Origin: Solirubrobacterales bacterium
GTDB lineage: Bacteria > Actinomycetota > Thermoleophilia > Solirubrobacterales > JACPNS01
Assembly: GCA_016185345.1 (NCBI GenBank)
Contig: JACPNS010000015.1
Coordinates: 62,001 to 126,000 of the forward strand
DNA length: 64,000 nt
Direction: 5' to 3'
The position numbers and the translations under genes were made by a program. Each line of letters begins with the position of its first letter. Position 1 is the first letter of the stretch. Of this stretch, positions 29,815-62,210 are shown one piece after another. Under the pieces are notes generated by a model, which did no database searches, had not been told where the DNA came from, and saw nothing but the letters and a program-made list of their open reading frames with translations.

Positions 29815-30686
29815 ACAAACTGATCGACGCGGACGCCCGCGACGAAGCCCTCGCCGGCGCGGTGACGATCGAGGAGATCGAAGCTGCTGAGATCGAGGCT
29901 TCGGCGGGCGAACCCGTTCACGTCGCCGCCTTGAGCGAAGGAACCCCGCGCTTTGATGCGCTGGAGCTTGATCTCGAGGTCTTCCACGGCCCGTTTGACC
30001 TACTGCTTGAGCTGGTCATGCGAGAAGAGATTGATCTCTTGGAGGTCGACCTCGCAACAATCGTGCTCGGCTACGTCGAGCTGCTCGAATCGCGCGGCGA
30101 GATCGAGCTCGAGCCGGTCACAGAGTTTGTTGTTCTGATCGCGGCGCTGCTTGAGCTAAAGAGCCGCATGATGCTCCCGCGCGAAGAGACCGACGGCGTC
30201 TTTGACCTCGAGTTCGACGCAGAGGAGGCGGCCGAAGAGCTGCTCAGCCGCATGCTCGAGTACCACCGCTACAACAAGCTTGCTGGATGGCTGCGCGAGC
30301 GATACCACGCCGAGCAGCCGTTTCACTACCGCAGCGCTCCGCTCCCGCGTGAGATGCGCACGGTCAGCTACGAGAGGATCGGCAAGGTCTACAACCCGGA
30401 CAAACTTGCGAGCGCGATCGGCGACCTGCTGAGTGTGCCAGAGCAGATGTCGATGCCGCACATGCGCGTGCACCGCGCCACGCTGCAGGATCGACTGAGC
30501 AGCCTGCGCACGCTGCTCAAGCGCGCTACGCACTTCAACTTCGATGACGCCGTCGAGGGCGAGGATCGCCTCACGGAAGCGCTCACGGTCTGGGCGTTGC
30601 TCGAGCTCTACAAGCTCGGTGAGGCCGACTGGGAGCAGGAAGAAACCTTTGGACCGATTGAGGTCTATTCAAGGACTGCGGCATGA
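29802..30686 (+). CDS. scpA: Condensin-associated kleisin ScpA
   Basis: This 294-residue kleisin bridges SMC heads for chromosome segregation. A 50-residue acidic N-terminus precedes the conserved LEVFHGPFDLLLELVMREEIDLLEVDLA region (shown here in part: FHGPFDLLLELV). LLELKSRMMLPRE and a C-terminal winged helix (TEALTVWALLELYKLGE) follow. GTG 29802 lies inside trpS. The end overlaps scpB by four bases. Confidence 0.93.
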   Translation: MESLNKLIDADARDEALAGAVTIEEIEAAEIEASAGEPVHVAALSEGTPRFDALELDLEVFHGPFDLLLELVMREEIDLLEVDLATIVLGYVELLESRGEIELEPVTEFVVLIAALLELKSRMMLPREETDGVFDLEFDAEEAAEELLSRMLEYHRYNKLAGWLRERYHAEQPFHYRSAPLPREMRTVSYERIGKVYNPDKLASAIGDLLSVPEQMSMPHMRVHRATLQDRLSSLRTLLKRATHFNFDDAVEGEDRLTEALTVWALLELYKLGEADWEQEETFGPIEVYSRTAA

Positions 30687-31342
30687 GTGAACAACCAGAA
30701 GAAGTGGACATCGAAGTCCCGGACCCATCCGAGGGAATTCCTGAGTCTCAACGACTCACGCTCCCCGCCAAGCTGGAGGCGCTTTTGTTCCTCTCCAACG
30801 AACCGCTCACGGTCGCTCAGCTCGTAGAGGCGACCGAATCTACTGAGTCGAAGATCGATCAGGCGCTCAGTGTTATCGAAGAGGATTGTGAGACGGGAAC
30901 GCGTGGGGTCGTCCTGCGCAAGATCTCCGGTGGATACAAGCTCGCCAGCGCGCCCGGCGCCGACGCAGCAGCAAAGCGCCTCTTCGCCAAGCCGCGCACC
31001 CCGCCGCTCACGCAGGCCCAGGCCGAGTGCCTGGCGATCATCGCCTATCTGCAGCCTGTCTCACGCCCGGAGGTCGCCCGCATCCGCGGTGTCAGCTCCG
31101 AGAGCGCGCTCGCCACGCTGCTCGAGCGCGGATTGGTCGCAGACGCCGGTCGATCCAAGTTCGGCGCAGTGATCTTCCGCACCACCGAGCTTTTTGACCG
31201 CTTGTTCGGTCTTGAGGGCCTCGACAAGCTTCCGAACGTCGCCGCCTTCGATCCTTCACCCGAAGATGAGCGCGATTTGCGCGAACGGCTGATGAAAGCC
31301 GGCGAAGCCCGCGAGGCTTCGACCCCGAACATCGCGCAGTAG
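30683..31342 (+). CDS. scpB: Condensin-associated protein ScpB
   Basis: This 219-residue protein has two winged-helix domains, as in ScpB. LEALLFLSNEPLTVAQL opens the first. GVVLRKISGGYKLAS and TQAQAECLAIIAYLQPVSRPEVARIRGV mark the link and second domain. The C-terminal 30 residues are charged. It binds ScpA in the SMC complex. It is the last gene before the 500-base non-coding region. Confidence 0.95.
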   Translation: MSEQPEEVDIEVPDPSEGIPESQRLTLPAKLEALLFLSNEPLTVAQLVEATESTESKIDQALSVIEEDCETGTRGVVLRKISGGYKLASAPGADAAAKRLFAKPRTPPLTQAQAECLAIIAYLQPVSRPEVARIRGVSSESALATLLERGLVADAGRSKFGAVIFRTTELFDRLFGLEGLDKLPNVAAFDPSPEDERDLRERLMKAGEAREASTPNIAQ

Positions 31343-31610
31343 GCGCCAAAAGCACTCGTTTTATCCCCGCAGAGACTTTCGTACAGGGGGTTAAAACCCC
31401 ATAGACAAGCGGTTGGGGGTCACGACCCCTCGAACAAACGTCCAAGTTACTCACTAGTGGCTATTTATGGGATATGGCATCGGCCGATAATCCCCTTGAA
31501 CGATCCGGGACATGATCTTCAACTCAAGAGATTGAGAACAAGGAGATTCAAGTTTCGGGGAATTGACTGTCGGCGCGACAGCGAGTGGTTCGGCCAAGTG
31601 CCTTCCATGC

Positions 31611-31740
31611 ATGTCGTGCCCGGCATCTCCCCCCAGAGACGATTTCAAAGCTGACTTGGTTCCCTGTAGAGCGATCTACATACCCCCCCGGGAGCTAGTC
31701 GTTGAAAGGCCCTTCGCTACGGACTAGGCGGGGGCCTTTC
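31611..31740 (+). ncRNA. Candidate small RNA with two poly-C tracts and its own terminator (6C-like)
   Basis: A six-C tract at 31629-31634 is flanked by TCT/AGA and, further out, TCGT (31614-31617) and ACGA (31639-31642), so the C's would sit in a loop. A seven-C tract at 31683-31689 follows the TGTAGA/TCTACA hairpin. The terminator comes directly after. The actinobacterial 6C small RNA is known for hairpins with C-rich loops followed by a terminator, and this resembles it. The 5' end is unclear and the first stem is weak. A covariance-model search would decide. Confidence 0.35.
31704..31740 (+). terminator. Rho-independent terminator
   Basis: GAAAGGCCC (31704-31712) and GGGCCTTTC (31732-31740) form a perfect nine-base stem, followed by GCTTTT. 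CTAGTC (31695-31700) is also complementary to GACTAG (31722-31727) in the loop, which could give a pseudoknot or competing fold. Confidence 0.75.
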
Positions 31741-31780
31741 GCTTTTAACGGGTCAACTACGATCAGGGCTCGGTTTTCAT

Positions 31781-31844: not shown

Positions 31845-33443
31845 ATGCTGCTGCACGCTGAACACATCACCAAGACCATCGGTACGCGAACCCTGTTCGC
31901 GGACATCGACCTGACGCTCTATCCGGGCGACAAGGTCGGCCTGGTCGGACGCAACGGGGTGGGGAAGACCACATTCCTCAAACTGATCGCCGAGCCCCAG
32001 CGCGACGGCGACATGCGGATCCGACACTTCGGCAATATCGGTTACTTGCCGCAGGACCCGCGCATCGACGACAACGTCGATCTGAACAAGTCCGTTGTAG
32101 ACCATGTGATCTCTTCGCTCAATCTCGACTCCGAGCGCGACGAGCTTGCCGAGTTGCTCACCGCGATGGAGAAGGACCCGAACGAGAATGCGATCGTCGC
32201 CTACACCGCAGCTCAAGAGCGCTACGCCGACAAGGGTGGCTACACGGCCGAGGAGAAGGCCGGATCCTTCGCCCGCGGCATCGGCCTGCGCGAAGAACGC
32301 ATCAACGCGCCGCTTCACGAACTCTCAGGAGGCGAGCTGCGTCTGGCCGAGATCGCCCGCATCCTTTTTGCATCACCGGACGCGCTGCTGCTCGACGAGC
32401 CGACCAACCACATCGACACCGACGCCCGCCTCTGGCTGCTCGACTTCATGCGCAACTATCGCGGCGGCTTGCTCGTGATCAGCCACGACATCGACCTGCT
32501 CGACGAGTCGATCACCCGCGTCATTCACCTCGACGAAGGCCAGGCGCACGAATACAAGGGCACGTACTCGCGCTACATCAGTTCGCGCGCCGCCGACGAA
32601 GAGCGGCTCGAAAAGGTCGAGGCCCAGCGCGAGGCCGACGCCAAACGCATGAAGACGCTCGCCGACAAGATGCGTGGCCAGAGCGCCAAGCGAGCAAAGG
32701 CCGCCAAGGCGCTCGACCGCCGCGTTGAGACGTTGCGTGCCGAGGCGCCAAAGAGCGTCAGCAAGCAGCGCGACGCGCACTACAAGTTTCCCGATCCGCC
32801 GCACTGCCACCGCACGGTGTTGATGGTTGACAACCTCGCGAAGTCCTACGACGAGAACGACGTGTTCAGCGACCTGAACTTCACGCTCGATCGCGGGCAG
32901 CGCATGTGCCTGATCGGGTTCAACGGCGCCGGTAAGTCAACGCTGCTGAAGCTGATCGCGAAGATCACCGAACCGACCGAGGGGAGCGTCGAGTACGGCG
33001 TCGGCGTCTCGGTTGGCTACTACGACCAGGAGCACGGCGACATCGATGCTTCCGAGACCGTCATCGAGAATGCCCGTAAAGACCTCTCTGGATTCTCCGA
33101 CCCTGAGACCCGCAGCCTGCTCGCCAAGTTCCAGCTGACCGGAGACACGGTTTACCAGAACGCAATGACTCTGTCGGGAGGCGAGAAGACCAAGCTCGCA
33201 CTGGCAAAGCTCGTCGCCGGCAAGCACAACGTCCTGCTGCTGGACGAGCCGACCAACAACCTCGACCCGGCTTCGCGCGACTACATCGCCGAGGCGCTGT
33301 CGGGCTGGACCGGCACGATCATCGCCGTCAGTCACGACACGGAGTTCATCGACGTCCTCAATCCCGACTTCTCACTAGTCTTGCCCGACGCCGACTTCAG
33401 CCACTGGCAAGAGGGCGACCTTGAGATGGTCGCGCTCGCCTAA
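31845..33443 (+). CDS. ABC-F family ATPase (ribosome-associated type)
   Basis: This 532-residue protein has two ABC domains and no membrane segments. Walker A motifs are GRNGVGKTT (about 36-44) and GFNGAGKST (about 358-366). Signatures are ELSGGELRLAEIARI and LSGGEKTKLALAKL, and Walker B sites LLLDEPTNHID and LLLDEPTNNLD end in Glu for hydrolysis. The linker between them (about 245-315) is charged and helical, as in ABC-F proteins that enter the ribosomal E site. Subtype (EttA, Uup, resistance) cannot be assigned by eye. Confidence 0.93.
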   Translation: MLLHAEHITKTIGTRTLFADIDLTLYPGDKVGLVGRNGVGKTTFLKLIAEPQRDGDMRIRHFGNIGYLPQDPRIDDNVDLNKSVVDHVISSLNLDSERDELAELLTAMEKDPNENAIVAYTAAQERYADKGGYTAEEKAGSFARGIGLREERINAPLHELSGGELRLAEIARILFASPDALLLDEPTNHIDTDARLWLLDFMRNYRGGLLVISHDIDLLDESITRVIHLDEGQAHEYKGTYSRYISSRAADEERLEKVEAQREADAKRMKTLADKMRGQSAKRAKAAKALDRRVETLRAEAPKSVSKQRDAHYKFPDPPHCHRTVLMVDNLAKSYDENDVFSDLNFTLDRGQRMCLIGFNGAGKSTLLKLIAKITEPTEGSVEYGVGVSVGYYDQEHGDIDASETVIENARKDLSGFSDPETRSLLAKFQLTGDTVYQNAMTLSGGEKTKLALAKLVAGKHNVLLLDEPTNNLDPASRDYIAEALSGWTGTIIAVSHDTEFIDVLNPDFSLVLPDADFSHWQEGDLEMVALA

Positions 33444-33455
33444 GGAGCAGAGCAA

Positions 33456-33923
33456 GTGAGTACGCACACAGAGCCATTCATCTGGTTTGACGCCGACCCG
33501 CACGAATTGCGCGACTTCTACGCAAGTATTTTTGACGACTTCGAGACGATTCACGAACTGCGAGGGTCCGATGGCGCCGTACTCGGTGTGACGGTCAGCA
33601 TCGGCGGTAGGCGGTACAGCCTCTTCAACGGAGGCCCCGGCTTTCCGCACACCAATGCGTTCTCACTGATGATCTACACCGACGACCAGGAGCAGACCGA
33701 CCGATACTGGAACGCACTGCTCGCCGATGGCGGCGAAGAGCATGCCTGTGGTTGGTTGACCGACAAGTTCGGCCTCAAGTGGCAGGTCACGCCGAAGTTC
33801 ATGATGGAGGTCCTTGCGAGCGACGACGCGGAGGGTCGCGAGCGCGCGTTCAACGCGATGCTGACGATGCAAAAGTTGATCGTCGCGGACCTTGAAGCTG
33901 CCTTTGCCGGCAGCGCCGACTAG
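33456..33923 (+). CDS. VOC-superfamily protein (PhnB/3-demethylubiquinone methyltransferase-like)
   Basis: This 155-residue protein has the single-domain glyoxalase-like fold of the PhnB-type family. IWFDADPHELRDFYASIF opens it. SLFNGGPGFPHTNAFSLMIY and GGEEHACGWLTDKFGLKWQVTP are the family's usual blocks. Despite the methyltransferase name in databases, function is unknown. GTG 33456 has TAAGGAG just upstream, formed partly by the ABC-F stop. It converges on the rlmN-linked ORF with a three-base overlap of stops. Confidence 0.85.
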   Translation: MSTHTEPFIWFDADPHELRDFYASIFDDFETIHELRGSDGAVLGVTVSIGGRRYSLFNGGPGFPHTNAFSLMIYTDDQEQTDRYWNALLADGGEEHACGWLTDKFGLKWQVTPKFMMEVLASDDAEGRERAFNAMLTMQKLIVADLEAAFAGSAD

Positions 33924-61283: not shown

Positions 61284-62210
61284 ATGACGACAAGCAATCA
61301 CGTCAAGACTTCCAAGATCGCGAAGATTTTCACCGTCCTCGCTCTGATCGCGGCAGTCTCGGTACTTGCAGGTTGTGGAAGCGACGGCTCCTCCACCGAA
61401 AGTGGTGCCACGAGCACCGACGGTGCCTCTATCGCCGGAACCTTCAATCAGGAAGCCGCAGACCTCATTCCGACAGCGATCAAGGACGCAGGCACGCTCT
61501 CGGTTGCGATGGATGCGAGCTATGCGCCCAACGAGTTCTTCGATGAAGACGGCAAGACGATCATCGGCACCGACGCCGACCTGGCCGATGCCATCGGCAC
61601 GGTCCTCGGGCTGGACGTCAAGAAGAAGAACGCCACGTTCGACTCGATCATTCCGGGCCTCGCCGCCGGCAAGTTCGACATCGCACTCTCGTCCTTCACG
61701 GACACCAAGGAGCGCGAAAAGACGGTTGACATGGTCACCTACCTCACGGCAGGAACCGGCTTCTACACGCTCGCCGACAAGCCGACCGAAGTCACCGGAG
61801 TCGCGGACCTCTGTGGCAAGACCGTCGCGGTCCAGAAGGGCACCGTGCAGCAGGAAGACGTCGAAGCACAGAACAAGAAGTGCGATAAGCCGATCGACTT
61901 GAAGGTCTTCACGCAGCAGACCGACGTGGACCTCGCGATCACTTCCGGTCGCGCGCAAGTGGCCATGGCCGACTCTCCCGTCGCCAGCTACGCCGTCAAG
62001 CAGTCGGATGGCACGCTGAAGTCAACCGGCGAGGACTACGACACCGCTCCGTACGGCATCGCGATCAACAAGAAGACCGAGCTGACCCCGGCAATCCAAG
62101 CGGCTGTGCAGGTCCTGATCGATGACGGCACCTACACGGCGATCCTGAAGAAGTGGGGCCTCGAGTCCGGAGCGATCACCGAGTCTAAAATCAACGACGG
62201 CGTCGAGTAG
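61284..62210 (+). CDS. Polar amino acid ABC importer, substrate-binding lipoprotein
   Basis: This 308-residue protein has a lipoprotein signal (hydrophobic segment then LAGC, lipidated Cys31). A low-complexity Ser/Thr/Gly linker follows, then an SBP_bac_3 domain with LSVAMDASYAPNEFFDEDGK, GTDADLADAIG and a C-terminal YGIAINKKTELTPAIQ. It would bind a polar amino acid outside the membrane. The permease and ATPase genes follow. Confidence 0.93.
   Translation: MTTSNHVKTSKIAKIFTVLALIAAVSVLAGCGSDGSSTESGATSTDGASIAGTFNQEAADLIPTAIKDAGTLSVAMDASYAPNEFFDEDGKTIIGTDADLADAIGTVLGLDVKKKNATFDSIIPGLAAGKFDIALSSFTDTKEREKTVDMVTYLTAGTGFYTLADKPTEVTGVADLCGKTVAVQKGTVQQEDVEAQNKKCDKPIDLKVFTQQTDVDLAITSGRAQVAMADSPVASYAVKQSDGTLKSTGEDYDTAPYGIAINKKTELTPAIQAAVQVLIDDGTYTAILKKWGLESGAITESKINDGVE

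Follow-up and report, generated by a model that had tools for sequence, protein, structure and literature searches.

The gap between the stop codon of scpB (position 31342) and the start of an ABC-F gene (31845), in a 64-kb stretch of DNA from a Solirubrobacterales bacterium (positions 62,001 to 126,000 of contig JACPNS010000015.1, assembly GCA_016185345.1), raises the question of what an apparently non-coding sequence is doing there. We refer to the whole 64-kb stretch as the window (part of contig C15 of the 2.4-Mb draft genome G000), and to the sequence held in the gap as the element. An initial annotation had described a hairpin-rich region without an open reading frame (ORF), ending in a dedicated terminator and likely transcribed. 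Here we ask (i) whether the element is a structured RNA under selection; (ii) whether it belongs to a known RNA family; and (iii) what it may do. The explanation that we favor as a whole, at a probability of roughly 0.38, is a stand-alone, genus-specific small RNA (sRNA) that most likely binds RNA polymerase.

Conservation and structure of the element

The genus set comprised five genomes, that of the window (G000) and four metagenome-assembled congeners (G001, G002, G003 and G004), two of them recovered from groundwater and another from a bloom sample. BLASTN matched the element in G001 (88%) and G004 (74%), and in G003 and G002 diverged homologues came to light on inspection of the sequence downstream of scpB. 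Each genus genome searched holds a single copy, which in all five follows scpB directly and shares its strand, with varying genes beyond. The portion shared beyond the closest relative, G001, begins at about 31395.

A five-sequence alignment (A4) contains the largely invariant blocks GUCC.A.UUAC, CGAUA, GGCGC, GCGAGUG, CAUGCA, AAGCUG, the C-run and the terminator-loop sequence CGGACU; between these blocks the sequence varies and pairing is maintained. Covariation was tested on a structure drawn by hand for the 3' core (31572–31702; alignment A6, five species, 500 shuffles), which consists of the hairpins H1 and H_B (Table 1). Standard pairs make up 97.8% of the cells, as compared with 91.8 ± 1.6% in the shuffles, none of which was as high, and the covariation score of 0.361 (shuffles, 0.233 ± 0.030) was likewise reached by 0 of 500. 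Eight pairs show changes on both sides: two of the 13 pairs of H1, in which 98.5% of the cells are paired, and six of the 15 pairs of H_B. Even the two closest genomes differ by such a replacement, from UGUAGA-GCGA-UCUACA to UGCAGA-GCGA-UCUGCA. When the partners were slid by one to three columns, pairing fell to 30–40%; this control is biased in favor of the structure, since the structure was drawn on these very sequences, and more weight attaches to the compensatory changes. Covariation in relatives, the absence of which the initial annotation had named beforehand as grounds for abandoning its interpretation, is therefore present across five species. Upstream of the core, the proposed long-range helix P1 (31428–31435/31552–31560) is drawable in most species, with 84% of the cells paired and one compensatory change, which is no better than the shuffles.

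The plus strand of 31343–31745 folds with an energy of -149.8 kcal/mol (z = -3.33; one of 100 shuffles equally good). Computed for each genome, z is -3.0 in G000, -4.7 in G001, -3.3 in G004, -2.5 in G003 and -1.4 in G002, and in all five homologues the plus strand is more structured than the minus strand. Folding energy by itself is weak evidence, and the case rests on the comparison. We found no credible protein gene in 31343–31746 and no ORF common to all five genomes. Furthermore, G000 and G001 are separated by indels of 1 and 2 bases within otherwise near-identical sequence. Because of these indels, and because no ORF is kept in the five genomes, we consider the reading frames inside the element spurious and rejected a protein-coding interpretation. 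The fold and the lack of a conserved frame bear out the earlier description of a hairpin-rich region without an ORF; its broader claim, that of a structured RNA that codes for no protein and has a dedicated terminator, is likewise supported. On comparative grounds, the element is almost certainly a structured RNA whose structure is under selection.

The constant position right after scpB, on the strand of that gene, would also fit a 3' untranslated region of the scpAB mRNA. Such a region might stabilize or regulate that mRNA or be cut from it and would have no promoter of its own; indeed, a scan of the gap found no sigma-70-like promoter, although the consensus applied is a poor guide in Actinobacteria. 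The size of the element, its internal conserved blocks and a degree of core conservation beyond coding-level constraint suggest instead that it has its own function, and we consider an mRNA tail unlikely. Between G000 and G001, successive 50-base bins across 31483–31682 are 92, 96, 100 and 96% identical; for third codon positions of scpB the figure is about 61%, and for the spacer past the terminator only 58–68%. In our judgment the element is probably an independent RNA that acts in trans; a cis element or the tail of an mRNA is less likely.

Relation to known RNA families

The Rfam scan that the initial annotation had proposed returned no family at cut-off in the window, with the signal recognition particle (SRP) RNA model included, and relaxed thresholds gave only chance-level matches and no family resembling the element. 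RNase P RNA (RF00010) is encoded at G000:C1:24120-24580, and in all congeners likewise elsewhere than at the element; transfer-messenger RNA (tmRNA, RF00023) is encoded at G000:C21:140916-141274, away from it. The earlier statement that the region is none of these three RNAs agrees with these results. Phages and plasmids gave no match to the element, and a literature search returned nothing relevant on RNAs encoded downstream of scpB.

A covariance model of the 3' core (R1) scored 102–146 bits in the five genus members. Outside the genus, it gave no credible match in searches of 232 genomes from the order and 399 from the class (Thermoleophilia); here, as in all searches of more than 40 genomes, stricter filters were used, so that strongly diverged homologues may be missed. 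The best match outside the genus (G019, 27.5 bits) falls within recN, in the reading frame of that strand, and was rejected for this reason; a match in G224 (23.2 bits) was rejected because most of H1 is missing and such a score is expected by chance in a search of 232 genomes. Judged by these models, the element is a new RNA family, outside every family tested. We thus add a family with strong comparative support from a poorly studied lineage.

One known RNA nevertheless offers a functional precedent. In mycobacteria, the C-rich loops of B11/6C RNA, two in number, cover ribosome-binding sites (PMC10470900). Like 6C/B11 (RF01066), the element ends in a terminator and may present C-runs unpaired by means of hairpins, and it might act in trans as an antisense sRNA, its exposed C-runs covering the G-rich ribosome-binding sites of several mRNAs and its remainder serving as a stabilizing scaffold. 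In each of the five species, the 3' bulge of H_B exposes a run of at least six unpaired C residues, while the surrounding helices have changed by compensation. Measured against the two C-run hairpins of 6C RNA, the element keeps this one bulge C-run in five of five species and a second run, of six C, in three of five. The element is, however, far longer than 6C RNA (75 positions in the Rfam model), its universal C-run lies in a bulge and not in an apical loop, and the 6C model has no match in the element or in any genus genome (in C. glutamicum, the control, the match itself stays below cut-off). Moreover, an antisense role would leave most of the long molecule, including several invariant non-C blocks, unexplained. 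We regard such a role as somewhat doubtful, and place polymerase binding slightly ahead of it; if it proves true, the 6C/B11 principle extends to a much larger, unrelated molecule.

The invariant internal loop GCGAGUG/CAUGCA, the CGAUA block and CGGACU in the terminator loop resemble sites of contact with protein or RNA. They would suit the RNA of some other ribonucleoprotein, for example a ribosome- or RNase-associated one, unrelated to RNA polymerase, but the data name no partner, and we think this improbable.

Gene order, 6S RNA and the proposed role

Antibiotic-responsive leaders control some ABC-F genes, and the element could in principle be a cis-acting attenuator or leader controlling the ABC-F gene that, in G000 and G001, starts on the same strand about 100 bases past the terminator. 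An alternative fold can be drawn in which GACUAG of the terminator loop pairs with CUAGUC of H_B (31695–31700). This complementarity holds in the closer species but is imperfect in G003 and lacks covariation, and we rejected the pairing. Gene order has already strongly weakened the leader explanation: G002, G003 and G004 keep the element with no ABC-F gene following, and the next gene there is rlmN, on the opposite strand. With the element retained under either arrangement, there is no downstream gene that it serves throughout, which speaks against a leader, and we consider this role very improbable. As to the arrangements themselves, an ABC-F gene and a small PF06983 gene (window positions 31845–33923) separate the element from rlmN in G000 and are absent there in G002–G004; in G001 the gene next to the element is likewise an ABC-F gene.

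The proposal of polymerase binding draws on the distribution of 6S RNA. The Rfam 6S model (RF00013) recognizes members of families f3 and f4 of the order and none of the genus. A second model, R2, for which six 6S sequences from Solirubrobacterales served as the training set, detected 6S RNA in 70 of the 232 order genomes, which among those listed belong to families f3 and f4 only; with permissive settings and the five genus genomes searched alone, it found no 6S RNA. In two f3/f4 loci inspected, 6S RNA lies directly downstream of aspS; the genus has a short reading frame after aspS in its place, and R2 has no match at the aspS loci of the genus or in the element. By these searches, 6S RNA has either been lost from the genus or become unrecognizable there, and neither the Rfam model nor R2 recognizes the element as a copy of it. 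The literature held nothing relevant on 6S RNA in Thermoleophilia. Across families, most genomes of f3 and f4 have 6S RNA, and none is detectable in f1 and f2. The G000 copy of aspS (G000:C12:76089-77076, locus L112) is itself interrupted, with a frame change and about 50 catalytic-core residues missing relative to the four congeners; this is likely an assembly error, the alternative being a real lesion.

Under the explanation that we favor, the element would be transcribed as a structured sRNA of about 330–400 nucleotides (nt) that ends at the terminator near 31746, is confined to the genus and acts in trans as a ribonucleoprotein. It would bind RNA polymerase, as core or holoenzyme, as Ms1 and CoRP do in other Actinobacteria, and would take the place of the 6S RNA missing from the genus. 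We favor this because of the size, the complexity and the genus restriction of the element and because of the missing 6S RNA; polymerase binding as such is a tentative proposal, made by analogy.

The closest parallel is CoRP, a 516-nt RNA that binds RNA polymerase and is confined to Corynebacterium, a genus without recognizable 6S RNA or Ms1 (PMC11077062). Both are long, intergenic, restricted to one genus and set in a conserved neighborhood, in a lineage without recognizable 6S RNA or Ms1. The two were compared by description rather than by sequence, and they differ in that CoRP, at 516 nt, lies between tRNA-Gln and tRNA-Glu genes (PMC11077062), whereas we found no tRNA genes within the window; polymerase binding, moreover, has been shown for CoRP and is for the element something that we only infer. 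Ms1, an RNA of about 300 nt found in Mycobacterium, Streptomyces and other Actinobacteria, adjoins HAD-hydrolase and oxidoreductase genes (PMC9130861, PMC4191392). It is similarly an actinobacterial structured RNA that stands where 6S RNA is missing, but the HAD hydrolase/oxidoreductase synteny (PMC9130861) does not extend to the element, the neighbors of which are scpB and either an ABC-F gene or rlmN. With 6S RNA itself (RF00013) the element shares only the proposed role: the 6S RNA of the sister families is about 155 nt long and follows aspS in the two loci inspected.

Several points weigh against polymerase binding. The element matches neither the Rfam nor the R2 model of 6S RNA; an antisense role would account for its unpaired C-run no less directly; and both its transcription and its binding of polymerase are predictions. 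Furthermore, members of family f2 have neither detectable 6S RNA nor a match to the element, so that the absence of 6S RNA does not predict the presence of the element, and the correlation is loose. It is possible, if rather speculative, that, in parallel to Ms1 and CoRP, an unrelated RNA that binds polymerase, here beside scpB, has arisen in a third independent actinobacterial lineage without recognizable 6S RNA. If the element does bind polymerase, the replacement of 6S RNA by unrelated RNAs would be a repeated event in Actinobacteria, and the structural features common to such RNAs would become comparable.

Features of the element

Table 1. Coordinates, in the window, of the element, its parts and the flanking genes
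Feature	Positions	Strand	Remarks
scpB	30683–31342		PF04079
5' variable part after scpB stop, hairpin UUUUAUCCCC...AGGGGGUUAAAA	31343–31394	+	Aligns with G001 only
Structured RNA element downstream of scpB	31395–31746	+	Conserved in five of five genus genomes
5' hairpin GGGGGUCACGACCCC	31415–31429	+	By inspection; G-run/C-run pairing drawable by eye in each homologue, loops differ
Proposed long-range helix P1, 5' strand CCUCGAAC	31428–31435	+	Partner GUUUCGGGG at 31552–31560
Sequence-conserved block GUCCAAGUUACU	31440–31451	+	GUCCAAGUUACC in G004; columns mostly invariant
Sequence-conserved block CGAUA	31485–31489	+	Invariant columns
GNRA hairpin CUCAA-GAGA-UUGAG	31523–31536	+	Loop GAGA at 31528–31531; compensatory in G004 (CUCAC-GAGA-GUGAG)
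H1 hairpin GGCGCGAC.GC..GUG ... CAU GC..GUCGUGCC	31572–31620	+	Internal loop flanked by invariant GCGAGUG and CAUGCA
First C6 run	31629–31634	+	In G000, G001 and G004
H_B hairpin: outer helix GACUUGGUUCCC/GGGAGCUAGUC, inner hairpin UGUAGA-GCGA-UCUACA	31653–31701	+	Compensatory changes among homologues
Unpaired C-run in 3' bulge of H_B	31683–31689	+	Six C or more in each of the five species
Terminator hairpin and short U tract, loop with ACGGACUAG	31704–31746	+	CGGACU of loop kept in all five
ABC-F gene	31845–33443	+	Same strand as element

Both GNRA-type tetraloops reported in the initial annotation are present (Table 1), the second, GCGA in H_B (31671–31674), being kept only in G001. The terminator hairpin that it had placed at the end of the region is also there (31704–31740), but the stem, described as one of nine bases, consists of 6 base pairs (bp), a bulge and 7 bp; GCUUUU follows, and the T tract is weak. 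The homologue in G004 has a perfect 8-bp stem followed by U5. A pseudoknot between the C-run and an internal G5 run was rejected as a general feature, since G004 has no G5 run. Within the terminator loop (window positions 31718–31727), the sequence (A/C)CGGACU is kept in the five species, which is unusual for such loops.
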